The notes under the pieces were generated by a model that worked only from the letters and a program-made list of their open reading frames with translations, had not been told where the DNA came from and ran no database searches. From NCBI GenBank assembly GCA_027923505.1, contig BROI01000001.1, forward strand, positions 1,148,501 through 1,212,500: a DNA stretch of 64,000 nucleotides. Reading direction: 5' to 3'. The position numbers and the translations under genes are program-made. Shown here piece after piece: positions 11,958 to 61,283 of this stretch (position 1 is the first letter of the stretch; each line of letters starts with the position of its first letter). This DNA is from Mayamaea pseudoterrestris (taxonomy: Eukaryota; Bacillariophyta; Bacillariophyceae; Sellaphorales; Sellaphoraceae).

Positions 11958-12444
11958 GATTCGCGGTAATTTTTAGGACTGACTGTGAGAGGCAGCCTTC
12001 AATTGGCTTGGATTGCCGTCCGTTTTTTGTCATGGTGGCCATCAAAATCGGCGCGGCGCTAGAATCGAGAACTTCAAGTGCGTATCCATGTCGCAGCAGA
12101 ACTCGATTAGCTAATCCGCCACACCCTTTGACTGGACGGATGACAGATCTATATCATACAAGCGGTATCTTGATCCGAAAAAGATCACATTGACATGCGA
12201 TGAACCGTTGCCTACCGGTAGATTATATGGTGTAAAAGTTCCTGTCGTTGTGATATCTAAGAAAGAAGCGAACCCTGAAGCTCTGCTACAATGATCAAGT
12301 AGTACATATAATCCACTTATTTTATGCAAACGACACTTTCCGTCTTTGACTATGCAGATATCGAAATTGATTGCGAGAACGCTCGAAACGCATCGCCCAG
12401 ATATATTGTGCACGAAAGTAACAAACCAGCAACGCCGGGCAAGC
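11958..12444. other. Intergenic between SEC63-like and FAS1 genes
   Basis: About 490 bases: the upstream region of the SEC63-like gene and the 3' flank of the FAS1 gene, both on the minus strand. One exact palindrome TACCGGTA lies at 12213-12220, within the longer palindrome CTACCGGTAG. No gene is seen. Confidence 0.6.
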
Positions 12445-14010
12445 TCAAGGAAGCAACACGTGATCTACTTCATGAATCACTCCGCCGCAATTCGCAATAT
12501 CGGCCTTGACAATTTTTGGCATGGCATGTCGGGAGTTGCCCCGTCCCTTCTGATAAATAGCATCATCGCGACAGACGGTGCGCGTGTAATGATCGTTCGC
12601 CATCTGAAGCAAATGAGTGCAGTGCAGAACAGACGAATACAGCGTCTCGTCCATTACAACATGGTAGAGCAAAAGATCTTTCAAGTCGTCCACGTCTTCC
12701 AGCAAATCCTCCAGTGTCCCGTGCGGCAACGACGCAAATGCCTCGTCGTTCGGAGCGAATATTGTAAAGTTGCCAGAGTCACTCGGTGCAGATTCGCCGA
12801 GACCAGATGCTTTAACGACACGGCACAAGGTTTTATACCCAGCCGATCCGCATGCAAGGTCTTGTACTGTAGAACAATTGCCAGTTTCGTTGCGGCCTGA
12901 AATGGGGCTGATCGAGGGTAACGATGTAATAGTAGGACTCGTCGTGCTAGCTCCGTACGACGGTGCTCCCGACGGTATTTCTGAAGCCATTGATCCGCCG
13001 CCGCTTGGCGCATATGATTCCGTCGAAGGAGTCGGTGTTCGGATGCCGATTACTGGTCGAGCTGTGCGACCCGACACTGGTTGAGTGGAAGGCGTAATTG
13101 ATGCTGCGCGTCCCGAAGGCTGAATTGAAGAAGGCGCCACGGATCCTTTGGCTGGGCGACGTGGAGTCCTCGTTTGCTTGCTGGAAGGTTCTATCGACGG
13201 CACCAAGGATGGCTGCATGATAGACGGGGCCACTGACTCCTGACTTGGGCGAGGCCTCGCCGTCCGTCCCGGGACGGGTGGCGACGTTGCAATTGATGGA
13301 GCTCCCGTCGTTATCTGGCTCGACGGAACGAGCGACGGCACTTGTGAACCAATCATTGACGGAATGTCGCTGGCGGCCGCTGTTGGCGCTTGAGTTGTTT
13401 CGTTCGTCGGCACCAGACTGGGAATCAAAACGTGATCAATTCCATGAACTACACCATTGCAAAACTCCACATCCTTAATATCAATCTCCGGCATCATGTT
13501 GCGCGAGTTCTCCGCTCCGACAATGTAAATGTCGTCGTCTCTGCAAACTGTTTGCGTCGTTTGTCCGTTGCCCATGGTGTTTGACTGGCCGCACTGCAAA
13601 TCGCTCGCGTACACTGTCTGATTTGGAATCGTATGATACAGTAAGAGACTTTTGATTGCATCAAGGTCATCCCAGTACTGCAACAAGAGTTCTTGCGGGA
13701 CGTCCTCAAACGCTTCGTTGGTGGGCGCAAAGATTGTCCAGTTTCCTTGATCCAGAACACTTCCCATACCAGAAATGGCGACCGCCGCGCAGACTGCCTC
13801 CAAGTCTTTCGTGTTACAGACGGCTTGCTCAAATGACGAACAGTTTTGCTGCTGCCGTGAAATGTTTCCACCGCTTCGCTCCTCCGTTCGACCGCCACTA
13901 GTCTCGGATCGGTTCTTGGAAGCATGCTGCGTGCCGTCCGACGGCAAGGTAAAGGCTGCAGCGTGAACCGCTGACGCAAGGGCAAGTATGCATACAATGA
14001 AGAGTTTCAT
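12445..14010 (-). CDS. Secreted protein with two FAS1 (fasciclin) domains and a Pro/Ser linker
   Basis: 521 residues from the ATG at 14010; the four codons upstream begin with TTG and are not used. The start KLFIVCILALASAVHAAA is a clear signal peptide, so the product enters the secretory path, probably to the cell surface or wall. Two FAS1 domains (residues about 55-185 and 375-521) each show the family blocks: FTIFAPN(D/N)EAF, the LLLYH motif (LLLYHTIP, LLLYHVVM), and a VxHxIDHVL-like end. The 185-residue linker is dominated by PSxxPS and Thr/Arg/Pro stretches, as in diatom wall-associated proteins, and is probably heavily glycosylated. FAS1 domains mediate adhesion. The two domains are near copies, suggesting internal duplication. 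Confidence 0.85.
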   Translation of the reverse strand: MKLFIVCILALASAVHAAAFTLPSDGTQHASKNRSETSGGRTEERSGGNISRQQQNCSSFEQAVCNTKDLEAVCAAVAISGMGSVLDQGNWTIFAPTNEAFEDVPQELLLQYWDDLDAIKSLLLYHTIPNQTVYASDLQCGQSNTMGNGQTTQTVCRDDDIYIVGAENSRNMMPEIDIKDVEFCNGVVHGIDHVLIPSLVPTNETTQAPTAAASDIPSMIGSQVPSLVPSSQITTGAPSIATSPPVPGRTARPRPSQESVAPSIMQPSLVPSIEPSSKQTRTPRRPAKGSVAPSSIQPSGRAASITPSTQPVSGRTARPVIGIRTPTPSTESYAPSGGGSMASEIPSGAPSYGASTTSPTITSLPSISPISGRNETGNCSTVQDLACGSAGYKTLCRVVKASGLGESAPSDSGNFTIFAPNDEAFASLPHGTLEDLLEDVDDLKDLLLYHVVMDETLYSSVLHCTHLLQMANDHYTRTVCRDDAIYQKGRGNSRHAMPKIVKADIANCGGVIHEVDHVLLP

Positions 14011-14785: not shown

Positions 14786-15130
14786 ATTGTTTGCTGATTT
14801 ACCAAGCGCAGGCGATGATGGAACGCAAGGTCCATGGTGGCGCGGCGCGAATGAGCTTGTTCGTGTCGCATCGTCGCTCGTGTCGCAGCGTGGACTCCTT
14901 GGCGTTTTAAGCTCGGTCTGACTCACCAAAGTCGTACTAATTTTTTTCGCGCGGAACACGTTTTGTGTTCTCCGGCACGCTAGAGAGTCGAGAACTTCGA
15001 CGAATCCTTTCTTTTTTGGATTCGGTCACCATCGGCATGTTACAAGAGTCGAGCTGAATAGTTCATTTGCACTGACCTGCTCTACTACTGTTCATCAAGA
15101 AGTTAACAATTTACACTCTACAAAACAGAT
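14786..15130. promoter_or_regulatory. Shared upstream region of two divergent genes
   Basis: The minus-strand gene starting at 14785 (or an upstream exon ending near 14959) and the plus-strand gene at 15131 are transcribed away from each other. The 170-345 bases between them should hold both promoters. No TATA box or TACCGGTA site is evident. Confidence 0.4.
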
Positions 15131-16219
15131 ATGACGAATGCAAACTTTGGCGACTCGGAAAAACCTCTGCAGGTGCTTTCCCGCAAACAGACAATCGTTC
15201 ATCAATTCCATCAACCGCAACAAGAATTACTGAATCACCTTCGAAAGCACACTATAAGAGACAGTCTTGCCAGTCGCATTATCGGAGACGTTGTCATTGC
15301 TCTTGGTGTCACTGCATGTGTGTCTCCCATGTTGACGGTTGTGGACAAGGCGGTTGTGCAGACAGCATCGCCGTCATCGTCGCACACATCCGTCGCCTCG
15401 TCGGCATTTGCGACTACGTCAAACATGCTGCATCGTCCGTTGGCTTTTCTCAAAAGTCCAACGTTTCTCTGGATGTGGATGACCTATGCTGTCACTTACT
15501 CGGCGGCAAATGTTTTGCAAACATTGATGGAACATCGAACTGATACTGCGCCTTCCAACGACACGAAACTTCCAAAGGTCTTGTCCAGTCGAGTCGGCCG
15601 TACACATGCCACGAAACAAGGCGAACGCTCAACATCACCGCCGGCATCTCCTTATATCCTTTTCATTGGGACAACGCTCGTAAATAGCGCAGCATCTTTG
15701 GTCAAGGATCGAGCCTACGCTAAACTATTTGGCCAGTCGTCCGCAAAAGGCGTTCCGAGAATTACCTATGCACTCTGGATGGTGCGTGATTTCACAGTGA
15801 TTGGGTCTTCTTTTGTCTTGCCCAAGTATACGACTCCAATGCTGGCTGATCACTTTGGCTGGACCCATCATCGGGCTGGAACAATTGCACAAGTCGGAGT
15901 CCCCGTTCTCATGCAAGTCGTCGCGAGTCCACTTCATCTCATTGGACTTGATTGTTACAATCGCCGCATGGCGGGAGTTCCTTGGTCGCAACGCGTGGTT
16001 GAGCGAAGCAAATTCTTGGCGAGAGACTTACGCCAAGTCGTTGTCGCCCGGATGCTTCGAGTTTTGCCTGGGTATGGGATTGCTGGCGTTTACAATACGA
16101 AATTTCGAAATCAGTGGAAGTACTTTCTAGCTGAACAAAAGCAGCATCAGATAAGAAGAACGAGTGATTTTGGTTACAGGCCGAGATTTAGCGAATTGTT
16201 GGCGCGGATTCGAAGTTAA
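15131..16219 (+). CDS. Multi-pass membrane protein, probably mitochondrial, function unknown
   Basis: 362 residues, single exon, ATG at 15131. Hydrophobic segments are visible at about residues 55-75 (IIGDVVIALGVTACVSP), 110-130 (FLWMWMTYAVTYSAANVL), 175-195 (ILFIGTTLVNSAASL), 225-240 and 255-285. The C-terminal part is well ordered: FGWTHHRAGTIAQVGVPVL, then SPLHLIGLDCYNRRM, then RMLRVLPGYGIAGVYN. This looks like a conserved eukaryotic family seen in fungi and algae that I cannot name; an inner-membrane location is suggested by the Arg-rich loops and carrier-like length but is inference. It shares an upstream region with the divergent gene at 14785. Confidence 0.68.
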   Translation: MTNANFGDSEKPLQVLSRKQTIVHQFHQPQQELLNHLRKHTIRDSLASRIIGDVVIALGVTACVSPMLTVVDKAVVQTASPSSSHTSVASSAFATTSNMLHRPLAFLKSPTFLWMWMTYAVTYSAANVLQTLMEHRTDTAPSNDTKLPKVLSSRVGRTHATKQGERSTSPPASPYILFIGTTLVNSAASLVKDRAYAKLFGQSSAKGVPRITYALWMVRDFTVIGSSFVLPKYTTPMLADHFGWTHHRAGTIAQVGVPVLMQVVASPLHLIGLDCYNRRMAGVPWSQRVVERSKFLARDLRQVVVARMLRVLPGYGIAGVYNTKFRNQWKYFLAEQKQHQIRRTSDFGYRPRFSELLARIRS

Positions 16220-19865: not shown

Positions 19866-21130
19866 TTACTCCGACTTCTCCTTCTTGCACATCTCCTTGA
19901 AATCTTCAATCGCCTGTTTGATGATGGCTGGGATCGCCAAATACGCTTCTTCAATCGCCTGCTTGATAAAGGCTGGGATCGCCTTATTCGCTTCTTCAAT
20001 CGCCTGCTTGATGATGGTTGGGATCGCCTTATTCGCTTCTTCAATCGCCTTCTTGATGATGTCTGGGGTCTGTTTGGCATCCGCTTCGACAATAACTTTG
20101 ATTTCGGCGAGCGTCTTCTTGTTGTCTTCGGCAGCAGCTTTGATGGCGACGAGCGTCTCCGTGTTGGCGGCGAGCGTCGCCTTGTTGGCTTCGGCGAGAA
20201 TCTTGCTTCCATTGACCGTCTCCGTGATGGCGGCGAGCGTCGCCTTGTTGGCTTCGGCGAGAACCTTGCTTCCATTGACCGTCTCCGTGATGGCGGCGAG
20301 CGTCGCCTTGTTGGCTTCGGCGAGAACCTTGACTCCCGTGATTGACACTTTGTTGTCCACAACGGTGTTCAGGACCAAGTTGACGCGGCCGTCATTGAAA
20401 GACTTGTCTTCACTCAATTTCTGCATCAGTGCAGTATGGTGGGCAGTCGCTTCCGTCGTGAGCGCATCCTTGTTGGCAGTCGCTTCCGTCGTGAGCGCAT
20501 TCTTGTTGGCAGTCGCTTCCGCCAAGATCGCTTCCTTGTTGGCAGTCGCTTCCGCCAAGATCGCTTCCTTGTTGGCAGTCGCTTCCGTCGTGAGCTCACC
20601 CTTTTTGATGGCCACATCCGCCATGACCGCATCCTTGTTGGCAGTCGCTTCCTTCGTGAGCGCCTTTGAATGCTTGTCAAACACGGCTTTGACCGCTTTG
20701 TTGATGTCGTCGCCTGTCATCTTTGCATCTTTGACGGCTTTCAAGACAAGGGCACGAAGTCGCTCCTCCGAATCTGCAGAAACATGATGCAATGAAAGCG
20801 AGCGGTGAGACGTGAGACTTGTCATGATCATTGAGTCATGCCGGCATGGCTACTTTGACTCACCTTCCTCGGCATTGGCAGCCGCTAACAAATTGGAAAA
20901 AGAATAGCAATCATGAGACAAAGTGCTTGGTTTCTCAAACGACCCTGCACCATCACTGTACGAGTATTCTTACCGGTACGCAACTTCTTGTCCTTGGGCT
21001 GCGAACCCTGCGCAGCTGCACGTTTGGCAATGTTTGGACGGGGAGGGCAGGTCGTTGCTGTTTGGTTTGACAGCTCTCCGTCCTTGGCATTGGCTTTCTG
21101 CTGATGGCGCAACTTGGCAGAATCAGCCAT
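19866..21130 (-). CDS. Ala/Lys-rich coiled-coil repeat protein, three exons
   Basis: Exons 21130-20974, 20884-20864 (21 bases) and 20773-19866 join at GT-AG sites in frame to give 361 residues, starting MADSAKLRHQQK. The short middle exon encodes AANAEE. After a basic N terminus come three tandem repeat families: an 11-residue unit (ALTTEATANKD and variants, about seven copies), a 21-residue unit (VLAEANKATLAAITETVNGS, three copies) and a 14-residue unit (IIKQAIEEANKAIP, four copies). The periods 11, 21 and 14 all fit coiled-coil geometry, so a long rod is likely. No signal peptide or membrane segment. I do not recognise the family. The first splice donor falls inside a TACCGGTA palindrome. 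The long minus-strand frame beginning at 20831 reads through the second intron and is not the true start. Confidence 0.75.
19890..20668 (-). repeat. Three blocks of in-frame tandem DNA repeats inside the coiled-coil gene
   Basis: Block one, about 20436-20668: 33-base units, roughly seven copies. Block two, about 20146-20334: 63-base units, three copies, nearly identical. Block three, about 19890-20065: 42-base units, four copies. All unit lengths are multiples of three, so copy number can change without breaking the frame. Confidence 0.85.
20971..20978. repeat. TACCGGTA palindrome on a splice donor
   Basis: This exact copy overlaps the exon 1/intron 1 border of the coiled-coil gene: on the minus strand the exon ends ACCG and the intron begins GTAAG. 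Its presence may be fixed by splicing rather than by the process that spreads the other copies. Confidence 0.7.
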
Positions 21131-22085
21131 GGTGATGAATGAAGGGGTGAATAGGGATCGAAAGTGGAGGACCGTGCCGTTTTGTGGCATCGTTCAGCCA
21201 GAATCGCACCTTCGGGGTTTTGCCGAACGATGACCGTCGGAGTCGTCGGAGAGTTCCAACTTCCGAACTTGAAGGAAAAGTGCCAGCAGTTGACATATTT
21301 TACCGAAGAAAGGGTCATTCTGAATGTTGAGGCTGTAGTTAATCAACGGTTCTATCCGGCCCTTCCGGATCTCAGACTTATCACTGAATCATTCGTCAAG
21401 TAAGCCCCAAGACCATCTGTTTAAGCCTTGCAGCGGTTTAAACCTGGAATCTTGGGATTCTGAATTGGTCGTTCCAGTTTCTTCAAGCCACGCCAGTGGC
21501 GTTCGCAGCGAACAGCTTCTCCAGACATTTTTCGTTTCCGGTTCGGAGTGACGCATATCCCACGGGCTTTCACTAGCAACTCTGAACTACTACCGGTAGT
21601 CGTGGTCATCCCGAACGATGACCTTGACATGATGACCGTTTGGTCGCTGCAGCACACCAACAACGAACCGTATCACGACGTACAGTACTCACTGTCAGTA
21701 GCAGCACTCGGCCAAGTTGCAGAAGCCTGCAACACATAATATGACATGACCATGGCCTTTACGGGTGTGCGATTGTTTCATCATTAGTGCGATACGTATT
21801 GTAAACAAATTTGACAAAGCTACAGGTACTTGTGCACATCAAAGCAAACGCTCGCTGTGCTACCGTACGAAGTACCGGTACGACGTATCGAAAGAGGGCG
21901 CAGCAACGTCATTACCGTACATATGCGATCTTTTCAACACCGTTGCGATATTCTTCCCTCGTCGATTTCGGCGCGCCACCTACGGCGAGTTCAAAGCAGC
22001 ATTGAAGATGACGAGGGAGGTGTTGATACTCCACTTCCGGGTTCCTTATCCGGTATCCAAGGAAGCTGCACTGGCTCGGCTTCCA
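21131..22085. other. Intergenic with two TACCGGTA palindromes and an ATIC fragment
   Basis: About 950 bases between the coiled-coil gene and the Copia element. It holds palindromes at 21591-21598 (within ACTACCGGTAGT) and 21873-21880 (within GTACCGGTAC), and the copied ATIC end described separately. Short open frames on both strands show no recognisable protein. Confidence 0.6.
21710..21833 (+). pseudogene. Duplicated 3' end of the ATIC gene
   Basis: This stretch matches, in inverted orientation, about 120 bases at 29857-29976: the last twenty or so codons of the ATIC gene, its stop and about 40 bases of 3' flank. The copy begins GGCCAAGTTGCAGAAGCC and runs through TTTCATCATTAGTGCG. I see a short insertion and a handful of substitutions, so it is a diverged, non-functional fragment rather than an assembly artefact. 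Confidence 0.85.
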
Positions 22086-22091
22086 CCTAAG

Positions 22092-22289
22092 TGAAGCCTC
22101 CACCGTTGCCTAGCACATGTGTTTTAGTTATGCCTCAGCGACAGGCGGTTAGATCAGCGAGCCAACCGAGGTTCCCACCGGCCACAAGTAGCGATAGAAC
22201 TCGGCAGGCAGTGCGACAATTGCCGCTCATAATAATTCACGTCAATCGTTTTGATCATTTCTAGTGTCTCTCCCTTAGAGGCATCAACA
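22092..22289 (+). repeat. 5' LTR of the Copia element
   Basis: 198 bases, TGAAGCCTCC at the start and GCATCAACA at the end. Identical by eye to the 3' LTR. The match extends a few bases on both sides (22086-22290). Confidence 0.88.
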
Positions 22290-22461
22290 GACGTGAATTA
22301 TACGATAATATCCGGCAAGTAACATCATTGACTCTTTCGTTTAACAATCTAAAGAGCACTCACGTTACCACCTTCGTCTTTTGCGTCCAGCGACTGAACG
22401 ACTCGAGCAACCCAGCTCTTCCCTCCGAGTGTGATCCTCCGCTCTTCTACCCTTCGTCACC

Positions 22462-24360: not shown

Positions 24361-25686
24361 ATGCAGTATGTGTTTGCTACGGCTTGTTTTGCAGTCTTTA
24401 CTACTACTTGTCAGTCAGATGTCGTTGCGGCAGGAGCAGCAGCAGCAGCCTTTGTGACGCATCATGACGGCAGCCGGACTAGAAAAACGCTACCGGTATT
24501 CATGCACGAGAGCAACACGAACATTAACGAGGAGTTTGTTTCACCATCGCAGCTACTCTACAAGGAGCAAGAAAAGATGCTAGTGGAACGAGGCAAGCTG
24601 GAGGCGAACATCATGGCATGCGCTCCAACTTCCATACTGACTGCTTCGGTCGTCAAAGGCGTCGGATCGGGTGGAGGCTTTGGCGGCGTAGCAACAAAGA
24701 GTACAAGGAAGAAGCACGGCAAGCCGACGAAGGCGTCCTCGATGGCTACGCTAAAGAGCAATCAAGCCATTGGAAATTATCATGCAGCCGAGCTACAAAC
24801 CCAAGGAGTCATTCGGATTGACAAAGTCATTTCGGATGCAACCGCTGATCGGATGCGCAACTACGTTTTTCAACTACGCCAACAATCCGAAGCACTTGTA
24901 CGACAGGGAAGCGTTGACTCGCTAGATTTGTTTGCCAATGTGCTGCTGCAAAACAAGCGATGCGATTTAAAACTGCCATTGCTCGTGGACAATGCTGCTG
25001 ATGACGACTTAGACTCTACCGTCGTTGTGCAAGCACTATACGAACTGCTCGTCGCTAGTCCAGTCGGAGCGACAATGAACTCTTTGCTTGGCCCAGATGC
25101 AGTCCTACAGGAGCTCAGTTGCCTAACTTCGGATCCAGGGAGTGACAGACAGGTTGTTCATCCTGATACACCATGTCGAACTGGCAATGATGGGACCAAT
25201 GATGAGGCGGTGTTGTACACTTGTTTCGTCGCTTTACAAGATGTTCGTGCCGATATGGGTCCAACCACGTGGCTTCCCAAAACGCATACATACGAGATAC
25301 ATCAAGTTTTTCAAGATGATTTTGTACCGACGACGAATTCGAAGTTTGCAACAGTTGGTGACGATAATAGCAATCATAACATCTCTACAATGAGTCCAAA
25401 AAACCAGTTGCTGCAGTCGCAACCGATTGTTCTCGGCATGCTTCCAAAGGGATCCTGTGGAATTTTTGACTCGCGGCTGCTTCATTGCGGCGGAGCGAAT
25501 ACGTCCGAGACGAGTCGATCCATCTTTTACGTGAGCTTCAAGCACCCAAGCGTTGGCTATTCAGGCAATCCTCCGAGCATTCGTCCTGAGCTTGTCAATC
25601 AATTCACTTTGGGCGATTTGGAGGAGGAGTTGACGCTATTTTACAAAAAGAAACCGACGCGGCGGATAATGCGGAATGATCGGTAG
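24361..25686 (+). CDS. PhyH-like Fe(II)/2-oxoglutarate dioxygenase, probably plastid-targeted
   Basis: 441 residues from the ATG at 24361; the open frame upstream begins with GTG. The first 20 residues (YVFATACFAVFTTT) form a signal peptide, and AAAAAF follows at about residue 30, like the Ala-Phe cleavage point of diatom plastid leaders; plastid or secretory delivery is inferred. The body has the phytanoyl-CoA dioxygenase pattern: the iron-binding VHPDT (HxD), the distal His in RLLHCGGANTSETSRS with the 2-oxoglutarate-binding Arg, and YTCFVALQDV..GPTTWLPKTH between them. Such enzymes hydroxylate small molecules or side chains; the substrate cannot be told. A TACCGGTA palindrome lies in the coding region at 24491-24498. 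Confidence 0.82.
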   Translation: MQYVFATACFAVFTTTCQSDVVAAGAAAAAFVTHHDGSRTRKTLPVFMHESNTNINEEFVSPSQLLYKEQEKMLVERGKLEANIMACAPTSILTASVVKGVGSGGGFGGVATKSTRKKHGKPTKASSMATLKSNQAIGNYHAAELQTQGVIRIDKVISDATADRMRNYVFQLRQQSEALVRQGSVDSLDLFANVLLQNKRCDLKLPLLVDNAADDDLDSTVVVQALYELLVASPVGATMNSLLGPDAVLQELSCLTSDPGSDRQVVHPDTPCRTGNDGTNDEAVLYTCFVALQDVRADMGPTTWLPKTHTYEIHQVFQDDFVPTTNSKFATVGDDNSNHNISTMSPKNQLLQSQPIVLGMLPKGSCGIFDSRLLHCGGANTSETSRSIFYVSFKHPSVGYSGNPPSIRPELVNQFTLGDLEEELTLFYKKKPTRRIMRNDR

Positions 25687-29176: not shown

Positions 29177-29901
29177 GGTCAAGTAGTCTTTGAACAAGGA
29201 AGGAGAGACTGAGACACTGATCAAAGGCTTCGTTTTTGTGTGAGCTTGACAGTGAGCTTGACGCTCGCCTTCGCCATTGTGGCACGTTTAGCTCGTCTAC
29301 GCCGAACGCCGTGTAGTGTTCACTATCTAGCGCCATGTGACAAAATTGCACTCCCGTGCGACTGGAAACGTTTTTACGCGAATCTGCCGTGGACGTGATC
29401 ATCAAACTTCTGCATGTCTCTCCGGTATGCTATGGGCAATAAAAATTAGCTACCCATGTTGCCATTAGGTACACTTAGACAACCTACAGCTACGCCAACC
29501 TCCTCCCTCATGCAGACTGATCAATTTTATAAGGTATATGCCAGGAACCCATGCCGCCTACATAAAATTAGATGGCTGAAACAGGTCTCGGTTGCAATAT
29601 TTGAGCCATTCTTGTTGCAAGCACCTACCGGTAATTATTTAAAGTATCATTCAAGGTGCAGCCCACCACTCAAGGCTGCAGTGAATCCGTTTCGAAGCAA
29701 GTGTCAACCCATCTAAATAGTTACTGTTACAGTACCATTTGTTCATTGACTCATTTTAGGCAGGGAATAAACAACAATTATAAGCTGAATTGTATTGTAT
29801 TAGTCTGTATATTTTATATGGCTGGTAGCACAGCGAGAGTTACTCGTATACATATACAAGTTCCTTTAGCTTCGTCAAATCTGTTTACAATACGTATCGC
29901 A
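29177..29901. other. Intergenic between BTB-like and ATIC genes
   Basis: About 725 bases, AT-rich toward the ATIC side. It holds the BTB gene promoter and the ATIC 3' flank. One TACCGGTA lies at 29626-29633. No gene is seen; the frame at 29656-30126 plus is a shadow of ATIC. Confidence 0.6.
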
Positions 29902-35300: not shown

Positions 35301-36195
35301 CGGAGAAATACCAACAATGTCAATCTTACTAAGTCCAGGTGTTTATTCATCCCGAACTGCTGTTGAACAGCTCGTTAGCGACAGAAGTACCAGAGATGCG
35401 CTGGCCGAGAACGGCGATAGGTTAAACGACGAAGACGACCCGAATTTGAACAATGTGGAAGAAGAAGGGCTATCGAATGAATCGTTTGCTTCCGGACTTG
35501 GTTTGGACATGAACGAGTCAAATGGCATATCATTCCTTTGTCTAAATCAAAGCGACCCGAAACCTTTGTCGCCACCTAAGCAAGCATCTCAGCTAGCCCA
35601 CGATCAGCCAAGGCGACTCTTTGCTGGTATATTGGATCAAGGTAACAAGTCGCAGATCACGAACCAATCATTGAGACCATTGAAGAAACGTGCCACGAGT
35701 CAGAGCTTCTCGTTTTCAAGCCCACCGAAAGCACGTGTTTCAAGCCTGATGGAGCCGCCGCCAACCTTTGGTTCGCCATCGGCGCTGCGAACCTATCAAA
35801 GCATCCAACCCTGCGATATTGGCACAACATTAGGAAGTTTCGCTGCTCATTCCAATGTGAATCCTCAGCTTCCACCTCATATGTTTGGCTCTGTCATGCA
35901 CAGCCCAGGCTTGCGCACACCTGTGCGGCTACAGCATAGTAATCTCTACGCCGCGTCATCTGGGTCGACTCCCAGATCACTCTTCTCTCCGGATGACCAA
36001 GATGCAATGGATGCAATTTCTGCTCTTGGCCAGCTAAGTCAAACGCCTCCGCTGAAGGAAGGCTGGGCAGACTCGGCCACTACCGGTAGACCCTCCGGTC
36101 AAAATATGGTCATTAATTCATCAAAAAAGCGGAAATCGCTCTTTCAAAGGGTTGTCGGGGAAAGCGACGAAAAGTCGTCGGCAAGAAAGCGATGA
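32320..36195 (+). CDS. Large nuclear protein with two Myb/SANT-like domains (GON4L-like)
   Basis: 1291 residues, single exon, ATG at 32320. The N terminus is Gln/Ala-rich and basic; residues about 250-325 are very acidic (DDDDDEFLFDDDEGEF). Two Myb/SANT-like domains follow: RRHRNLLTAAEDSLILRGV..FLPDRIGTVISRRYNKL (residues about 662-720) and RWDFEEDVVLLKGVALLG..YLPHRDRTHIRKRYEVL (about 768-825). The paired LPDR/LPHRDR motifs resemble the SANT pair of animal GON4L and plant relatives, which regulate transcription; this match is from memory of the pattern. The C-terminal third is low-complexity Ser/Pro-rich. Chromatin or transcription role is inferred. A TACCGGTA palindrome is in the coding region at 36081-36088. 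Confidence 0.75.
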   Translation: MSQAKNFGASTPAAAAATYAPRTDIHPSAAASAEQQQGKVTAESHELEASRYTKTLDELKAEARAIALSSTVTKKKPPAFRQLAYQQQQRYQRRRINVKPSAAQVAATIHAQNAKAKQDARLAQNGKGPTTMQVLQQRLPLSTTPKMGQKRRLSPSMHEFGETMGMQITQQSTNSGAFDERQQPANSMLKSKKRYCQPWSALLNDTQPGLNDNATVNSFPAIQFDADYALFVKNLVATQGKKYSSDGDESVLAALALADDDDDDEFLFDDDEGEFDDDEDDDENDEEQSNSADDAPGNVNRFINSGSPKFNHCDASGDNDSNDDEPIDPVLEWESSIQEELEGLHQEDMQAAVATLLENPMDKTRRRHQSQHLLASNSVEHTRTGGHLEVLLKSSTKALVAADGTIPSPVNAGAAANVNKIVEQSLIFPPAASSVEPSMQYLTSVPTEISTDEQLQRFQSLLKRHYQILVQQAVLTVRTAHDFEQRHKKKSSDEDLQQRPENALLTEQDVVFSNEHSSEFTNILDSTVQMLQDLDQNRKDAIRRAVLPSGGARRLTRAQFLAKTQLLQEQAQTLTVFAIPGLHKLKDTFALLDNSAVDTEADDGLFKYSKHADACERVLKEAGAVCEPICLPNVKDVSEYFTNAQEFLGKDFQPPCNPAQETMLRRHRNLLTAAEDSLILRGVNLFGEKQWEMVRDRFLPDRIGTVISRRYNKLSVIVFRAFGVQIDEEGDLPLVATVYKSVEQMSSSTRQQLRLLKSVDAPAIYNVHRWDFEEDVVLLKGVALLGTSWAVIKATYLPHRDRTHIRKRYEVLARRFKSVEKVFHRDVQLYDQWMAKRQVELPPPDLGAVGLAAQILRKAKTDAMIMSPSGFSNAESEVSETDMPIRGSRLFGRDSFTSPLRFARKPVQGVASPLHTVANLAATINTEVDSSRSIFEKIAMDQNSFSALDNIDTIGMSNLASLASPMAATSLKPGSQFASDMLRSPAYDASRTSFGEIPTMSILLSPGVYSSRTAVEQLVSDRSTRDALAENGDRLNDEDDPNLNNVEEEGLSNESFASGLGLDMNESNGISFLCLNQSDPKPLSPPKQASQLAHDQPRRLFAGILDQGNKSQITNQSLRPLKKRATSQSFSFSSPPKARVSSLMEPPPTFGSPSALRTYQSIQPCDIGTTLGSFAAHSNVNPQLPPHMFGSVMHSPGLRTPVRLQHSNLYAASSGSTPRSLFSPDDQDAMDAISALGQLSQTPPLKEGWADSATTGRPSGQNMVINSSKKRKSLFQRVVGESDEKSSARKR

Positions 36196-38865: not shown

Positions 38866-40142
38866 CGCTGTGATGGTATGCAATTGGATCCAAGACATCC
38901 GTCATGTTGAAATCACTGAGCTTGCACGCAACAAAACTGTACGAAGAACTTAGATTTGTACCGTAGCCGAAGCATAAACGATCTAGGAGAGCTTTGGAAG
39001 GCCATGCTGAGGCGACATTCAATGAATAGTTAGACTGGGCCACAGGTTGAGACAATAATGCAAACTATAACGCTATTAGCACTGGCAAATGCCGTCGGTG
39101 CTCGAATACTTCCGTAGCAGATCAAGAGTTGTGCTTTCTATACGCAAGCGCCAGTCCAAAATACGAAGGCAAATCACTCGAGCTGTAGTCCAAAGACTTG
39201 ATACATTAAATTGGATGTATAGTTTTTAAGTGAGCAAACAGCGGGCCCTTCTTTTAATAGTTACGCGAGCATAAACTCCGCGACTTGTTCCAACAGTATC
39301 ACACCATGAACGAGCCAGCATGGACGAATTCCTCGAAGGAAAAGAAGAGGCAGCAGAAGAAGCAATAACCACTTCATAAGGAGCAGATGCAGGATCGTGA
39401 CCATGACGCAACCAAGTGAACAACGATGATGTTGGCGACCAAGAGGAGACTGACGATGATTAGATGGACGAGCAAAGATATCGCCGATGTTGAAGGCGAT
39501 CTGGAGACAGATTTGTTTTTCGCCCGAGCGGGTGGATGCCGTGCAGGCCCGAAACGCTTGGAAATATGGATTGACCTTTACAAAGTAGCGGCCACCTCGC
39601 CTTCCCTCGTTGCGGCTGCATTAATTGTCGGTTTAGCTTCAGCTTTAGCTTAATTGCTTCCTTCGATGCCACACTACGCTGCCTAATCTTGATCTTGTCG
39701 GCGGCGGGATGATATGGTAACGTACACACGGAAATTGACACTACCGGTAGTCTTTTGTTGCAGCCGCCGAGCCGCTAAAAGTCTGTGATGCGGCATGCGG
39801 CGACAAGTGTGCAATTGTCGCCCAGATAGCGGACTTTGTGGCAACTTTGCGGTCCCTTGTTTGGCGATTCAAACTGCACGTTTGGTAATTGGCGTTGGCG
39901 GTGTTGCGGTTGTCATGTTTCTTTGCGACTCCCATCTACGTACAGTAATACCGGTAGTAGAGAAAGCACGACTCCCTTGATAGTGCCTTGGGCCTATTCG
40001 ATGTGTCAAGTGGGACCGAAAGATTAGCCGAGTCATTTTGGGTCATTTCGATCGATGCAACGAAAATCGCAATCGCAACCCGCTCGTCGCACATTCACAA
40101 GCATCAAGATCCAATATTAACCACGATCAAAGACAATTGACC
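38866..40142. other. Long intergenic region with two TACCGGTA palindromes
   Basis: About 1.3 kb without a supported gene. Palindromes lie at 39742-39749 (within ACTACCGGTAGT) and 39949-39956, 200 bases apart and 200-400 bases upstream of the leucine-rich-repeat gene. Short frames at 39226-40027 are not protein-like. Confidence 0.6.
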
Positions 40143-42080: not shown

Positions 42081-42339
42081 CGTCGAGCATGTGATTGTTG
42101 TTAACTTGTGATCGATTCGTTGGACCGCGTCTTTCGACGAATGGGCAGCAGCTGTCGATCGGGTTCGGATCCCAGTCCCACTTCAAAACGTCACTATGTC
42201 GTTCATGAAAACGTTACTACCGGTACGATTGCCGCGCCACAGCGGGAAATATTTGAGGCTCTACCTACCATAAAAATTAACATGCAAAAGCTTATACTTC
42301 TATATACACTCATGATAGCCACGCTACATATGCTTTATA

Positions 42340-45300: not shown

Positions 45301-48300
45301 TTTTACAGAGCTTCGGGCAGTATATTTCGCCGCTCCAACTCCAACTTCAGCTGCAGCCTTGGCTGCTCCGCCTGCGCTAGAAGCCACTTTCATGGCCGCT
45401 CCACCAGCGCCTTTTGCGACATCCAGCATCGTCCCCCCAAAAGCAAGAGAGCCTGACCTGGCTCGTCGCCCTTGGCCAGGGGGTCGTCTACCTGATGCTT
45501 GACCAGGCGTACCACTAACATTATCAACGTCATCTGACTCATGATGACCTTCACCGTGGAAAACTGACGCGCCCGCATGAATGACATTGGCAGCGCCTCG
45601 CGAAGTCGCCGTCATAGCCTTCGCAGCCCCGCCGGCAGTAAACTTTGCAACCTCCATTCCTGCCCCAGCTGTGACTGAGATCGCCTTTACAGAGCTCCGA
45701 GCTGTATATTTGGCGGCGCCAACTCCTGCTTCTGCGGTCGCAGAGATAGCTTTTGCAGCTCCTTTAGTTGTATATTTGGCAGCGCCGACTCCAGCGCCCA
45801 CCGTTGCTTTGGCAGCACCAAATGCAGCTCCTCCGGCTCCTTTAGCAACATCAAGCATCGTTCCGCCGAAAGCTAATGAGCCCGATCTTGCTCGTCTGCC
45901 TTGTCCCGGCGGCTTTCGCAGCGCATTCGGAGCAGTGTAATCGGCAACAGCAAGAGACGCGGGTGCGTTTGACAGATCTTCTTGCAACTGTGCCTCAGCT
46001 CGTTCACATCTCTTCACAACAGTGGGAACGCCAATCATGTCCATGCTATACGGCACGCAAGTTTGCTGATACTCGAATGAATTTGGTTGGATCTGCTGCG
46101 GCGCCAAAGTTGTCTCGTCCAATTGGCTAGTATGCTGTGATTCCGAGTGGGATGCAGAGCAACTGCGTCCAGAGTACGAACTCATTGACCTAATACTGTT
46201 CGACAATGAGTCACTTGAATCACTATGGTTTTGATGCGTCACAGGCTGTGATAAGCTGGATCTGTTTTCACCGCTTGACCGAGTGCGATCAGAAGACGAA
46301 TCAACCGAACATGACTGTTCAGAATGTTCGTCATTTTCGTCCGACTCAGCGATTGGGTAGGTCAACACTGTAAAATCAGCCTTGCGCGATGAGCACGTGG
46401 AGAGTTCATTAACTTGCAAACCGTCTTCGCCAAGAGATGCATTACCCGACGCCATGCGTTCTACAGCTGGAGGAAGCGGCGTCGCGTCAAAAACCATGTC
46501 TTCGCGTGCGCTGTCATGGAGATTATGAGGCATGGTCCTCGATCGAGGTTGCTGCATCAAACCTTCCGAAATTCGAGCATTTCCACGCTCATCATAGTGT
46601 GGATACCGAGGAAAAGATGTACTACCGGTAGTTTTCATTGTTTCAGGTGCATCATCGATATTCAGTGAGGCGTCTGATGAGTCCATCACTTTTTCGATAA
46701 CGCCATTGACGATAGGCACGTTTTTGCCAAAAGCCAAAGCTCCTGGCACTGTTTCTTCTAATTGATAGTTCATCTTGGCAAATGCGTGCTTGTCTTGGGC
46801 GACCTCCTTGCGCTCCACTCCAATCTCTGCTATCTTAGACTAAAAACAGTAGATGAGAGTCTATGAGAGAAAGTACAGCTCGGCAACATGACCTAATACG
46901 AAAACTTACCTTGTCGCTTTCAGCCACCCCAGCTGGTAGTGCTTCTTTTGATTCTTGCGCGCGCATAATTTCTAGCACGTATTTATCACCCGTCTGCCGA
47001 TTGACAACTGGTTGAGGTGGTAAAATATCGTCCACATCGGGGCAAACCCAATCATCAGGACCAACGGAAGATTCCAACTGTGAGGCATTATGGCCAGCAT
47101 CTGTAGCTAAATCATGAGGCGTCAGCTCGTCATCGTCATTCACAAGCAATTTTGTATCAATTGATGCTAGCACACCACTCGACGTTCCATCATGCCGAGC
47201 ACACTTTTCATGCAACACTTCGTCCAAAGGCTCTAGAGCAGGTTCCATTGATGCATCTTCGCGAGCATCAGAAGCTTGTTCTGTGTCCTTTTTCCCTTGT
47301 GCTCGAAGAATCTCCATCGCGTATTTGTCACCAGTGGGTCGATTGACAATAGGCGCTGGCGGCAATACTTCCAGAATGTCAGGGCATGTCCATTCGTCGG
47401 GACCAACGGAGGACCCCGAAACAGACTCATTGTTATCGTCAAATGTACTTTCTACAGCATGTACCGAACGCTCGCAGCTCGCAACTGAGACAGAACGCTC
47501 ACTGCGCGACGATGTATCGCTGCCTTTACCCGAGATGGAGCCATATCCGTAGCTAATGCCCCCGCAACTGGAGCCTGAATGTGCGCTTCCGCCAGATATA
47601 ACTTGAAGTGCACCATCAACATCGTCTTCCACAACTGTTAATAAATTAACTGGAGCATCCGGTGACAAACGATGTTCAATAATCTCTACGAGTCCCTCAT
47701 TCTGGACTGTCGACAATGCTTGGGTTTTTTCGAAGGTGCCAACACTTTTCACACCTGGCTCCGCCGCATTACCAATTTCAACTGAAATCACTGAACTTTG
47801 AGCCCGAAGAATCTCCAGCACATATTTATCGCCGGTAGGCCTGTTCAGTGGCGCGGTTGGAACTATTGGTACTTCTGGGCAGACCCACTCGTCTGGACCG
47901 ATGGACGATTCCGAGACCGATTTATCGCCGTCCATGTTTTTGATTGCTTTAGCATGGCCAACATCTTCCAAAGCTAAAAAAGTCTCTGCTATCTCAAGCG
48001 CTGCGGGTTGCTCAATTAAAACCATATCGTCCCCCTGATTTTGCTCTTTAACATGCTCATCAATGTCCTGAATGGACACCATCCCAGCTTCACCAGGCTC
48101 CGATTCTTTCATCCCTTGAGCTCGAAGAATTTCAAGCACATACTTGTCGCCAGTAGGCCGATTGACAACAGGCTGTGTCGGCAAGACTTCAACTACTTCT
48201 GGACATACCCACTCGTCTGGGCCAACAGATGAACCACATAGTGATGAAGCGTCGCCCTCCTCGTCATGGGTAGCAACTGGCTGCCGGCCTTGAGCTGAAA

Positions 48301-50137: not shown

Positions 50138-50559
50138 TATTTGCTACGAAGACTGCTATAGTAGTGCGGAAATGTACAGTGTTACCCTAGGCAGACGAAA
50201 TGCAAAATGCAATCAACACATATAACTATAGATAGCCTCATTGTCCTTGCATGGACTGTGAAAGTGCACAGATGATATTGACGCTGATCAGCCAGATACT
50301 ACCCATAGTTCATCAAACGCGGTACGACGAGTCGACGCTATCTTAGCAACCCATTTCAATGCAACAACCATTCTACCGGTATACAATAAGTACGTTATGC
50401 ATACAGCGATTCAAGTCAATGATATCAATCATTAGATAATGTTTCATTTCCCATTGATCTATAAAAAGGGATAACGCAACCAACCAGCCTAATGCCAACA
50501 TACGCGAGCGGCGGCAAACTTCTGGCCCTTGGACATCCGGATGCAGACGCCAACCAACA
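50138..50559. other. Intergenic upstream of the giant gene
   Basis: About 420 bases; promoter of the giant gene and 3' flank of the Cys/His-repeat gene. One TACCGGTA at 50374-50381. The frame 50373-50699 minus is a shadow. Confidence 0.55.
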
Positions 50560-51247
50560 CTACCAAATGTAAAGATTATTGTGCGGTTGCTGCATCTGAT
50601 AATGATATGGAGACAATTGCGGAGGCAAAGGAAGTGGCTGAATCTGCTCATGACGGTCTGCTTCGTATTGCTGTTCCTGCTGCGAAGCAAGTGGAGCACT
50701 GTACTTGGTCCAGTGACGCTTGCACATGCCGTCGTGTGTTCCCTGAGCCTGCTTGTCGCAACCTGGCAGTAGAAAAAGATTCAAACATTAACGAGTGAGT
50801 AGGATTTAGCGAAAAACAATGACGCAACGGTCGACAATTACCGGTAATTCTCGATAACTCGCTGCATACAGGCCAATTCTTACCTTCAATGCGGCATCGC
50901 TTCACCTTGGCACCATGGCGTTGACAGTGACCTTGCGACTTGATCACACGAATGCATCCTGGGAAGCGACAAAGACGCTTTGCTTTCTTGGGTGGAGGTT
51001 CTTCATTGTGGGACGATTCCTCATGCGGCTGCTTCACCGGCAAGCAGACACGCTCCTGTCGAGCGTCGTCCAAACTAATCGATCGCGCCCCATGGTCCTG
51101 CGGCGCAATCCCTACTGGATACGAGTGCAGCTGCTGCTGCTGCTGCTCCTGTTGGCGAGGATGATAGTTGTGATGGGCGACAACATCAAAGTCTTCAAAG
51201 CCAAGAGGATAGCTCGAGCCTTCCATGCCGTCGCGCGTCATGTTCAT
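50560..51247 (-). CDS. Cys/His-rich repeat protein (CxxPGC..GHCxRHG type)
   Basis: Two exons, 51247-50884 and 50762-50560, give 188 residues (first ATG taken at 51247; a longer frame reaches 51400). Gln/His-rich ends flank a compact core made of two and a half Cys/His repeats: LCRFPGCIRVIKSQGHCQRHG, then KRCRIEGCDKQAQGTHDGMC followed by KRHW. The intron cuts the second repeat between its Gly and Cys, and splicing restores the motif, which supports the join. Such repeats are very common in diatoms and oomycetes, often in putative nuclear regulators, and probably bind zinc. The function is unknown. A TACCGGTA palindrome lies in the intron at 50839-50846. Confidence 0.78.
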
Positions 51248-52205: not shown

Positions 52206-52429
52206 AAGCTGTATACCATTTAAAATGCGTTCATATTCCCAATCACTCGTTCCGCCTCTTTTGGCCATGCTTTGCGATCGCAATACCGGTAGCTTCTCCC
52301 AACGCCCAACGTGCGTGTGACCGTGTGACCATGGCCAAGTACCGGTACTGTAGCGTAAAAGCGTCACGTCAGTCGCTTGAGTTTATTGATTTAACGTTAA
52401 CGGTACTTAATGAGCCTAAACACGCAATT
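52206..52429. other. Intergenic with two close TACCGGTA palindromes
   Basis: Palindromes at 52284-52291 and 52340-52347 are 56 bases apart, the tightest pair in the window. No gene is seen. Confidence 0.6.
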
Positions 52430-57168: not shown

Positions 57169-58944
57169 ATGACAGACACGATAAACAATTTAACGTTTCG
57201 AGCGGTTCGCCCGACGGACATGGATCAATGCTACGCGCTCGAAAAGGCTTCCTATCCTACTGACGAAGCCGCTTCCAAGACGACGCTTCAATTCCGACAG
57301 CACCACGCCGCTCGTTACTTTCGATGCGCTGTTTTGCAGCATGCAGATGAAGGAGAGGGACCAACGGAAGGAGACGGAGAAGGAGTAGCTGAGGATTTGA
57401 TTGGAGGAGGTGAGACGACAGCAATTACAGCAACCATGGCAGCGCCGTCACCGAATAGCGGAAACAGCACCAACACTCATCACAGTCACGAGAACGAGGA
57501 CTCGGACGACGACAAGGTCATTGGTTTCATATGCAGTACACTCTGCAGGGAGTTTACTTTGGAGAGCATGCAGAATCACGTTCCCGCCGGTCCGCTGCTT
57601 GCGATTCACTCGGTTGTCGTCGATGAACGCTTTAGACGCAAAGGAATTGCTACGAAAATGCTACAGGATTACATCCAGTTCATTCAAGATTCGAATGCGG
57701 AACGAATTACACCAATCGAAAAGTTTGTTCTACTTGCTAAGCGAGAATGTCTTGCCTTTTACATTAACTGCGGATTCTCTGTGATTGGCAAGAGCTGCAT
57801 TGAGCATGGAACGGAGCAGTGGTATCACCTTGAACGAGTCCTTCCCCGTGCGCATTGTGAATCTGGCCTGAGCTGCTACATTGTCAATGCCTTTGCGGAG
57901 CCAAACAAACAGTCGACGACTCGAACGAATGGAAGTGGGAATCCAGCCGCCGTCGTTGTCCTACCAGCGGATCATAAAGTTGACTTGGAAAGCGAGGACC
58001 GGCAAGCCTGGATGCAAACCGTTGCAGCGCAGTTCAATCTATCGGAGACTGCCTTTGTTCAGCGGAAAAGCATTTCTGGGCAAAACAAGGACGGTTGTAT
58101 CGAGACAGACTCGATGAACTTGACAACATCCGAAGATGACGCGGCTCATTTTGACATTCGCTTCTACACGCCAACCACGCAGATTGCTCTTTGCGGACAT
58201 GCCACGCTGGCGTCCGCGGCGGTCCTTTTTAAGACGTTAATACTACCAGAATCTCAAGCTCCAATTTGCTTTCATGCTCTGGATCATGTCGTTTTGAACG
58301 TGGAAAAGTCGTTGCTACTGCCGGGCACCAACAATAATTCGCGTCATTCGAGTATCACGATGAAATTCCCCATAAAACCACCACTTGAAATTGAAGATGA
58401 AGATGCCCGACGCGAAATCATGAAAATGCTACAAGTCGCTTTGGAGGTGAATACGGACACTAATGACGATTGCATCTTGTTCATTGGCTTTACGGATCTG
58501 GGCGACTTGCTTGTAGAATTGACGTACGAAAGTTTCATTCAAATTGACGGAGGAAACGAACACAGTGAAGCATCGCCTTTGTCCATTGACTACAAGGCGT
58601 TTTCATCGTACGACGGCTACACTCGTGGGGTCATTGTGTGCTGCCAGGCACCGCCGACATCCGGGCATGAAGAGGAAGAAGTTTCTATTGCATCCGATGT
58701 AACGTTTGACTTTTACTCGCGTTTCTTTGCACCCAAAGCTGGTATTTCCGAGGATCCAGTTACGGGATCGGCGCATGCTAGTTTGGCACCCTACTTTGCC
58801 AAGAAGCTTGCCAAGGACAAGGTCACTGGTATGCAAATGTCGCGACGAGGCGGAATAGTTGACTGTCAGCTGCTCTGGGATGATGGCACGGTGGATTTGA
58901 CGGGATTGGCGGTCATTGTCATGCGCGGAGAAGTGTTTTTGTAG
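57169..58944 (+). CDS. Fusion of GNAT acetyltransferase and PhzF-like isomerase
   Basis: 591 residues, single exon, ATG at 57169. Residues about 8-225 form a GNAT domain of the arylalkylamine N-acetyltransferase type: FRAVRPTDMDQCYALEKASY, then the acetyl-CoA site HSVVVDERFRRKGIATKML. An acidic 60-residue insert interrupts it. Residues about 235-591 are PhzF-like: GNPAAVVVL, NLSETAF (with the catalytic Glu), RFYTPTTQIALCGHATLAS, and EDPVTGSAHASLAPYF. PhzF proteins isomerise small metabolites. Both halves look complete, so the fused protein may act on one substrate in sequence, but this is inference. No targeting signal is clear; probably cytosolic. Confidence 0.88.
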   Translation: MTDTINNLTFRAVRPTDMDQCYALEKASYPTDEAASKTTLQFRQHHAARYFRCAVLQHADEGEGPTEGDGEGVAEDLIGGGETTAITATMAAPSPNSGNSTNTHHSHENEDSDDDKVIGFICSTLCREFTLESMQNHVPAGPLLAIHSVVVDERFRRKGIATKMLQDYIQFIQDSNAERITPIEKFVLLAKRECLAFYINCGFSVIGKSCIEHGTEQWYHLERVLPRAHCESGLSCYIVNAFAEPNKQSTTRTNGSGNPAAVVVLPADHKVDLESEDRQAWMQTVAAQFNLSETAFVQRKSISGQNKDGCIETDSMNLTTSEDDAAHFDIRFYTPTTQIALCGHATLASAAVLFKTLILPESQAPICFHALDHVVLNVEKSLLLPGTNNNSRHSSITMKFPIKPPLEIEDEDARREIMKMLQVALEVNTDTNDDCILFIGFTDLGDLLVELTYESFIQIDGGNEHSEASPLSIDYKAFSSYDGYTRGVIVCCQAPPTSGHEEEEVSIASDVTFDFYSRFFAPKAGISEDPVTGSAHASLAPYFAKKLAKDKVTGMQMSRRGGIVDCQLLWDDGTVDLTGLAVIVMRGEVFL

Positions 58945-59112
58945 CAAGGCTGTTGTGTCAGTGAATGTTATTTCATGCCATAAGTTTGCTATCAGTCTTT
59001 ATTACAATCGTAACTAGTTAAATTGTTTGTCATTGCACGTGTAAGTAAATCACACGCGTAATCGGCGCGATGTCAATTAAGCATTGTCTTTCTACGTTAA
59101 CAAGTGTCAATG

Positions 59113-60522
59113 TCAAGAGTTGGCCTCGTTATCGCCGATATGCATTGCTGCCGACTTGTCTGGGAACCTGTACAAGCGTCCCAAACTCCCATCCGACTTG
59201 ACAGCTTGCGCGGTCCATGGCTCAGTGGCGTGCGCATTAATCTGAATTGTAGCCTTGTACCAGTCACTCGCCACCTTGCCAGGAACAATTTGATCATTCC
59301 ATACTTGATCTGACTCGCGCTGAATTTCGTCTAAAACGGACGATCCATATGGACCACCTGCGTTGGCATTGATAACCTCAAATACATCGCCGGCAGCAAC
59401 TGCTTGGGTTCCTAGTAGTATTTCTCGCATCATGCGCTGGTCAACGCTTGTTTTCGCCAAGCTCAAATCGTTGATTTGAAAGTGTAACGCAAGTTTCCTG
59501 TAACCTTTTGGGAACAAGTAATCGACGTAGTGAAACATGGCCACGTCTCGGCCAGACGATTCCAGGAGGCAGTTCATGCCAAGCACTTGCGCTTGATTCA
59601 GAAGCCAGGCACCAAGCACTTCTGATATGGTGCGATATCGCGAAAATATGGCAGCCTTGAGGTTTGAGTAATCGTCGATAATATCGGAGGACGGAGAGCC
59701 CGGAGGGTCGCCCTGCTGCAGGCGCACTCGCTTTGCCGTCAATTGATACAGCATGGCAAATTCCTCGTTACAAAGTGTAGAAATCATATGATCGAGTTGT
59801 CGAAAGAAAGAGTTTTGACCTGTTGGGAGTGAAACAGAGCCGGTCGAATCCAAATGGCTAACGTTCGTCGCTGCACCTATTGCTCCTGTTGGCACTACCA
59901 CAGCTTCCTGAAGCAACTGGGAGAACCACGGCATGTACATACTTGTCGACTTGCGAATTCCATTAACTCCCGTCACTAGAACGACCCATGGTTGCTCCAC
60001 TACTTGTTTCTTGCTAGCAGAAAGGTCAGCAGCATGTTTCGCGGCCTCGTTCCAGTTTCCCTCGCGCAATATACGCTCCAAAACTTGTCGGAAGGGAGCG
60101 TCCGCATTAAGCAGTCCCGATTCATCATTGTCGGCACCTGCAAGAATGCTTCCAAGCCGTTTAGCGTTTGCTTCTGTCGAAGGCCAGTCCGTGTGTGGCA
60201 GATGAGCGACTTCCAAAAGTAGACGAGCTAATTCCGCACGTGGAATCTCATGCTCTACTGGTCGAACATTGTCGAGCGAATCGATAATTTTGTCAATTTC
60301 TTCGCTTGTAAACGGCAGCCGCTGCTTGGCGCGTTCCGTCATGGATTCGGTATAATCATACAGAAAAGTAGACGCAGTGGTTGAGGCATCAAGTGATGAC
60401 TTGAGCTCGCGCGCAGTCTGCCTACGCTGCAATTTTGCGACATCGGAGTCGATTGAAGATTGAGAATTCGGTGCCGTCATGGACAAATAGCAGCAAGACA
60501 GAAAGGTGAACGATGATACCAT
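59113..60522 (-). CDS. P-loop NTPase/kinase-like protein with modified Walker A
   Basis: 469 residues from ATG 60522; ATG 60480 is an alternative start that would drop a hydrophobic opening (FTFLSCCYL). The central VVLVTGVNGIRKSTSMYMPW (about 182-201) looks like a Walker A loop, but the Gly before Lys is Arg. Other blocks: ELARLLLEVAHLPHTDWPS, ADNDESGLLN, EEFAMLYQLTAKRVR and CLLESSGRDVAMFHYVDYLF, the last resembling the part of nucleotide kinases that follows the P-loop. I recall the same GVNGIRK motif in fungal and algal proteins, so the Arg is probably family-typical. Substrate and pathway are unknown. Confidence 0.68.
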   Translation of the reverse strand: MVSSFTFLSCCYLSMTAPNSQSSIDSDVAKLQRRQTARELKSSLDASTTASTFLYDYTESMTERAKQRLPFTSEEIDKIIDSLDNVRPVEHEIPRAELARLLLEVAHLPHTDWPSTEANAKRLGSILAGADNDESGLLNADAPFRQVLERILREGNWNEAAKHAADLSASKKQVVEQPWVVLVTGVNGIRKSTSMYMPWFSQLLQEAVVVPTGAIGAATNVSHLDSTGSVSLPTGQNSFFRQLDHMISTLCNEEFAMLYQLTAKRVRLQQGDPPGSPSSDIIDDYSNLKAAIFSRYRTISEVLGAWLLNQAQVLGMNCLLESSGRDVAMFHYVDYLFPKGYRKLALHFQINDLSLAKTSVDQRMMREILLGTQAVAAGDVFEVINANAGGPYGSSVLDEIQRESDQVWNDQIVPGKVASDWYKATIQINAHATEPWTAQAVKSDGSLGRLYRFPDKSAAMHIGDNEANS

Positions 60523-61283
60523 ATCGACTTGCCTCGCTGGAAGAATGGTGATGAACTTGCGGAAGGAACGACCGAGTGGGGTCTGCTGAAGGAGAGAGTG
60601 CCGGGCCTCTTACCGGTACTCATGCGACAATGCCGTTTCCTGCATAATGAGTGGCACAATATCTACGGTACAAGTACTACTCTACAACTTGCCGATTACT
60701 GATAATTGATGCCAAGAAGATCCGAGCAGAACTGATACTGCTACGTGCAGGCAGTCATGACGCAGATTCCAACGTTAATCATTATGCACAGATATCATTG
60801 CCTTAACTGTAAAGTTGATTGGCTGACCAGCTAATAACTACTTTCACGTTTGTTTTGTGGTTTGTAGTCCGGCGCAGCAAAGTAGCCATGGCTATTGCCG
60901 TGCAGCTGTGTCATGTGCATTGGAGTAGGTGGCCACTGCCCACTGCTATTCTGTACCAGTAGGTAGGATCAAAAGTGATGCGCTCACACTTATGCTGCTG
61001 TGGATCTTCCCTGGCGCCAGCTATTATGAGCAAGAGTGGGCATCGGCTTCTACTCGCTCGCGCTACTATCTAGAAGTCTTGATTGTTTTGTTCATCGCTT
61101 GCGCGACCTGATGCATTGTTTTGTACTATGCGATCATAGTATTAATCGTACCGGTATTGATACTAGCGCAAAACCCAAGACGATGATGGTGTGCGGATTA
61201 CGCGCAGCATTCTACTCGTAAAGGCGTGAAATAAACCTGTTGATGCTAGTATCATATTATATATATACTGATAAAACAGAAAA
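60523..61283. other. Intergenic with two TACCGGTA palindromes
   Basis: About 760 bases upstream of the P-loop gene and downstream of the kinase gene. Palindromes at 60611-60618 (about 90 bases upstream of the P-loop gene start) and 61149-61156. No gene is seen. Confidence 0.6.

Follow-up and report, generated by a model that had tools for sequence, protein, structure and literature searches.

We examined a 64,000-bp window from Mayamaea pseudoterrestris (contig BROI01000001.1, positions 1,148,501 to 1,212,500; ~49% guanine plus cytosine), to which all counts below refer, and in which 17 exact copies of the palindromic octamer TACCGGTA lie dispersed among predicted genes. Gene models come from a simple Viterbi caller of our own, trained on the open reading frames (ORFs) of the same window. 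From its output of 46 models we kept 27 with a score of at least 5 or a length of at least 180 codons as the main set (44,990 bp of coding sequence, CDS) and 22 with a score of at least 10 and at least 130 codons as a stricter set; dropped models were removed before counting. The caller missed a 370-residue ORF at 15107-16216(+), and the main set retains two models, 8002-8220 and 6910-8539, that overlap on opposite strands.

Among the proteins of the window, the Pfam cut-offs are passed by domains of the Chromo, mitochondrial-carrier, Myb and Zf_WRKY19 families, a gene content that points to eukaryotic DNA; CHD1-type, EF-hand and cyclic-nucleotide matches score slightly under them. Searches of the window return no Rfam match at gathering score, no tRNA with ARAGORN and no match to plastid-targeting starts of the ASAFAP kind.

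Excess and exactness of the octamer

The first-pass annotation of this DNA had listed 17 copies of TACCGGTA, and we find every one of them at its position. Markov models of the window predict 0.17 copies at order 1, 0.3 at order 2 and 0.34 at order 3. Across 150 order-2 simulations the octamer reaches a maximum of 2 copies; 150 order-4 simulations, which partly contain the TACCGGTA signal themselves, yield a mean of 1.01 and a maximum of 5. The top count of any 8-bp palindrome has a median of 7 and a maximum of 11 in the order-2 simulations, and a median of 9 and a maximum of 19, reached by an unrecorded word, in the order-4 simulations. None of the other 256 - 1 palindromes matches the count of TACCGGTA in the real window, where it ranks first of 256, and the octamer's observed/expected ratio at order 1 (100x) is the top of all 8-mers with at least 8 copies, followed by CTACCGGT at 35x, which is an overlap of TACCGGTA itself, and then by GCAGCAGC at 16x.

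Similar counts for CG-containing palindromes of like composition had been named in the first-pass annotation as an outcome that would speak against an excess. Such counts are absent: of the 96 palindromes with this composition, the 95 besides TACCGGTA have a mean of 1.01 copies and none has more than 5, the number found for the runner-up GATGCATC, which contains no CG; the best CG-containing palindromes besides TACCGGTA reach 3 copies versus 17. The excess of TACCGGTA is real and strong.

It is also all-or-none, as the exact octamer alone shows it. Its 24 one-mismatch relatives add up to 11 copies (9.1 expected) and its 252 two-mismatch relatives to 149 (135 expected). Lone half-sites show no excess in the window, given that outside the 17 sites TACCGG occurs 2 times and CCGGTA 6 times, versus order-2 expectations of 5.8 and 6.3, respectively. 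The CG centre accounts for 17 of the 31 TACNNGTA words, and the next most frequent centre, TC, for 4. The base preference reaches beyond the octamer, with C at position -1 in 16 of the 34 arms (P=0.004; G in 8, A in 5, T in 5) and A at position -2 in 20 of the 34 (P=3e-5), so that the outer bases lean to A-C and the preferred extended form is ACTACCGGTAGT. At 5 of the 17 sites the palindrome continues for 2 bp or more on each arm, versus 1.06 sites expected (P=0.003), in accord with the earlier remark that some sites form longer palindromes. Taken together, exactness, flank preference and palindrome extension are what one would expect if a symmetric dimer recognised the site strictly.

Placement among genes and neighbouring features

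Using the main gene models, 13 of the 17 sites fall outside CDS, though CDS makes up 70% of the window (P=9e-5). The density is 0.68 sites per kb outside CDS and 0.09 per kb inside, a ~7.7-fold difference (13 in 19,010 bp versus 4 in 44,990 bp). Our own models agree with the first-pass count of 13 sites outside coding exons and one on a splice donor. The first 12.2 kb of the window contain no site, and the sites span 49 kb of different genes. The pairing of sites that had been remarked upon proves weak, with 6 of the 16 adjacent gaps at 700 bp or less versus a simulation mean of 4.0 (P=0.17).

Table 1. Exact copies of TACCGGTA in the window and their surroundings.
Position	Setting	Nearest model or feature	Palindrome
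12213..12220	intergenic	~256 bp upstream of start of model 9756-11957(-), which has a weak below-cut-off DnaJ match	
20971..20978	predicted minus-strand splice donor (G/GTAAG, slash at the junction); counted in CDS	low-scoring small model 20850-21130(-)	
21591..21598	intergenic		within 12-bp palindrome ACTACCGGTAGT
21873..21880	intergenic	~200 bp ahead of element 22086-24117 (2 kb, terminal repeats identical)	
24491..24498	CDS	130 bp inside model start (uncertain) of PhyH-domain ORF 24361-25686(+)	
29626..29633	intergenic	~450 bp upstream of model 27764-29176(-)	
36081..36088	3' part of CDS	Myb-domain protein 32320-36195(+)	
39742..39749		~400 bp upstream of model start 40143(+)	within ACTACCGGTAGT
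39949..39956		~194 bp upstream of model start 40143(+)	
42218..42225	intergenic	~183 bp upstream of low-scoring model 41487-42035(-)	
46623..46630	CDS	large model 42340-50137(-)	within ACTACCGGTAGT
50374..50381		~237 bp upstream of start of model 42340-50137(-)	
50839..50846	predicted intron	Zf_WRKY19 model 50560-51247(-)	+3 bp per arm
52284..52291		~80 bp beyond end of low-scoring model 51660-52205(+)	
52340..52347		56 bp from copy at 52284	+2 bp per arm
60611..60618		~131 bp upstream of model 59113-60480(-)	
61149..61156	same intergenic space as 60611 copy	~669 bp upstream of model 59113-60480(-)	

Two repeat structures lie among these sites. The element at 22086-24117 consists of two identical 205-nt direct repeats flanking a gag-like ORF, 22462-23589(+), which has no Pfam match and which we presume to resemble the gag of diatom Copia elements. 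It looks like a young gag-only long terminal repeat element, and no obvious target-site duplication is present at its reported boundaries. The segments 21710-21833 and 29856-29976 form an inverted copy (95-100% complementary) that comprises the 3' end of the AICARFT/IMPCHase (PurH) gene and adjacent sequence; this is a short duplicated gene fragment, and it lacks the octamer.

A single ORF at 57169-58944(+) joins a GNAT acetyltransferase domain to a PhzC-PhzF domain, and another at 16386-19622(-) carries mitochondrial carrier domains together with the slightly sub-cut-off EF-hand and cyclic-nucleotide-binding matches. The very large model 42340-50137(-) runs to 2,576 codons with repeated units at 46955-48257 and has no convincing Pfam domain in either exon. 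At 19866-20720(-), direct repeats of 33, 45 and 63 nt encode a repetitive protein; the overlapping plus-strand ORF matches no Pfam family, the repetitive minus-strand protein itself not having been searched. Searches of viral and genome contig collections confirmed no relatives of the window proteins, nor any match with a fucoxanthin-chlorophyll protein as bait.

A probable regulatory site weighed against its rivals

We consider TACCGGTA to be, with good probability, the binding site of a homodimeric regulator and a common cis-regulatory (promoter or enhancer) element of this genome. We infer that a symmetric dimer would bind TACCGGTA, preferably as ACTACCGGTAGT, with one subunit on each TACC/GGTA half, that the bound dimer would act on transcription through promoter or enhancer sites, and that the octamer may be the counterpart of an oomycete motif known as M94, motif-9 or streme-5. 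Factors of the bZIP type and palindrome-binding helix-turn-helix factors are candidates only. A regulatory site was one of several options raised in the first-pass annotation, and it emerges as the best supported of them through the noncoding bias, the exact dyad, the flank preference and the oomycete promoter motif; significant proximity to gene starts does not form part of that support. The strongest outside evidence is the report of the same octamer in oomycetes, among them Phytophthora infestans, where it is described as motif M94 and as over-represented in promoters (PMC3597505).

A number of observations weigh against this reading. Crowding near gene starts within intergenic DNA is not significant with either gene set. 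In the main set, 8 of 12 intergenic sites lie within 500 bp upstream of a model start (background 51%, P=0.21) and 10 of 12 within 700 bp (background 63%, P=0.12), and in the stricter set the corresponding numbers are 7 of 13 (background 43%, P=0.31) and 9 of 13 (P=0.24). Taken alone, the window therefore demonstrates that the sites avoid coding sequence and not that they favour promoters. Two of the 12 intergenic sites of the main set occupy a gap between two 3' ends. The 4 CDS sites exceed the 0.13 expected (P=1e-5), and two of them (36081 and 46623) lie within genes of high score, where an element confined to promoters would not usually be found. Of 221 6-mers tested near the sites none is prominent as a co-enriched motif, the best having P=0.0015, and in the hyphal promoters of P. 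infestans the over-representation of M94 is reported as weak, with p=10^-2 versus 10^-26 for TACATGTA (PMC3597505).

Some of these observations would suit a chromatin-architecture or boundary element, at which a dimer bound between genes organises nucleosomes, loops or replication domains: the noncoding bias comes without a significant promoter-proximal bias, two sites share the gap between 3' ends, and one lies in a predicted intron. We nevertheless regard such an element as unlikely, since the sites have no special spacing (P=0.17) and the oomycete counterpart was discovered through over-representation in promoters or upstream regions of regulated genes. Less probable still is an iterated palindrome resembling HIP1 of cyanobacteria, GCGATCGC, maintained by DNA modification or repair without a gene-regulatory role. 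Such a palindrome would be consistent with an exact, all-or-none octamer that is dispersed and present in coding sequence too, and a methyltransferase link has been suggested for HIP1 (PMC4390886); the ~7.7-fold lower density in CDS and the flank preference past the octamer argue against it. The composition of the window lends no support to a possible methylation link, another option of the first-pass annotation, with a CpG observed/expected ratio of 1.10 and 135 copies of CCGG versus 152 expected.

The mobile signal listed among the options in the first-pass annotation, which we weighed as the footprint of a mobile element or of its preferred target, is largely refuted by the window data and is very improbable. 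The copies are dispersed, some of them close together, and the window does contain a 2-kb element whose terminal repeats, each of 205 nt, are identical, but those repeats hold no copy of the octamer. In an all-against-all comparison of the +-300 bp flanks, different sites share no similarity except for overlaps between neighbours and the one duplicated PurH 3' fragment without the octamer, and we therefore rejected a mobile-element origin of TACCGGTA. Equally improbable is a local or compositional accident of the window. The evidence does come from a single 64-kb window whose first 12.2 kb are siteless; against an accident stand 17 copies versus a maximum of 2 in the 150 order-2 simulations and the distribution of the sites over 49 kb of different genes. 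We retain the binding site of a homodimeric regulator as the preferred explanation of TACCGGTA.

Comparison with known palindromes

Two other known palindromes invite comparison with TACCGGTA. The Grainyhead/CP2 site, AACCGGTT, has the ACCGGT core and the dyad in common with it, and occurs 0 times in the window, hence without enrichment. The Drosophila DRE, TATCGATA, is an exact 8-bp palindrome common in promoters and is bound by DREF; its likeness to TACCGGTA is a functional analogy only, as the centres differ, and its single copy in the window represents no enrichment. HIP1 and TACCGGTA are both high-frequency octameric palindromes, yet HIP1 has another sequence and belongs to another domain of life, and TACCGGTA avoids coding sequence.

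Clustered copies of the octamer are found in viral contigs. When these were scanned for groups of three copies lying close together, 40 stretches came up, in 28 of which every gap below 60 bp is divisible by 3, the pattern expected of in-frame coding repeats, and several others have regular gaps of 20 or 22-23 bp. None of the 40 has more than 2 copies that stand over 200 bp away from every other copy. We judged the viral stretches to have no relation to the single, scattered copies seen in the window. The arrays on three of the viral contigs (L010, L017 and L035) have a regular 20-bp spacing and that on a fourth (L036) a largely alternating 13/11-bp spacing; these four could be iterons or operators.

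The closest likeness is with oomycetes. The first-pass annotation knew of no description of TACCGGTA, which is wrong for that group, where the octamer is in print as M94, motif-9 and streme-5. M94 is described as over-represented in promoters of pathogenesis-candidate genes from three groups, namely PcF, sterol carriers and RXLR (PMC3597505). The Plasmopara halstedii motif streme-5, ATACCGGTAT, is reported upstream of 206 genes and is equated by its authors with motif-9 of Seidl et al., GTACCGGTA (PMC10031896). The letters of motif-9 are taken from that report, ACCGGT occurring 0 times in the main text of Seidl et al. (PMC3520976), who report motif-9 to be an inverted repeat that lies upstream of 1,284 genes, shows a correlation with expression during infection and is enriched for RXLR effectors, and who regard such inverted repeats as suggestive of a homodimeric factor. 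In a P. infestans binding-array study, ~85% of the bZIPs seem to bind palindromes and an ACGT core is missing in about half, on which basis bZIP can count as a candidate family only; ACCGG, CCGG and CGGTA each occur 0 times in its main text, and so no cognate factor was found there (PMC11267843). Our literature search, mostly judged by title, found no description of TACCGGTA for diatoms or other algae, and the main texts of two diatom promoter papers (PMC12538271, PMC4915529) contain no CCGG. The octamer is probably new for the present lineage while already in print for oomycetes.

Were the excess to hold genome-wide, TACCGGTA would be among the commonest cis-regulatory sites of its genome. 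It is conceivable, although we would put this at less than an even chance, that TACCGGTA is a general regulatory palindrome of ancient origin, common to all stramenopiles and bound in diatoms and oomycetes by one conserved dimeric factor, its core unchanged and its flanks diverged, and frequent enough here to act at a large share of genes. The NRF1 and DREF sites of animals offer an analogy for so widely used a site. If the excess is genome-wide, identity with a promoter motif of oomycetes, for which we found no named binding factor, would open a direct way to a transcription factor that may be ancestral to stramenopiles, and a 12-bp probe used for a pull-down in one or the other lineage might suffice to identify the protein.

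The oomycete sister motif TACATGTA has a single copy in the window versus 4,150 occurrences in P. infestans promoters (PMC3597505). The strict oomycete Inr+FPR pattern has 0 copies in the window, and its looser Inr part has 56, a number for which no expectation was computed. Motif-9 is reported upstream of 1,284 genes, and in the window 10 of the 12 intergenic sites lie at most 700 bp upstream of a start in the 27-model set. Whereas the outer bases in the window favour C at -1 and A at -2, unlike those of GTACCGGTA and ATACCGGTAT, the octamer core TACCGGTA is shared with M94, motif-9 and streme-5, is palindromic in each, and in oomycetes was found over-represented in promoters or upstream regions. 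The interest of TACCGGTA resides in its density, its exactness and its possible conservation across the stramenopiles.

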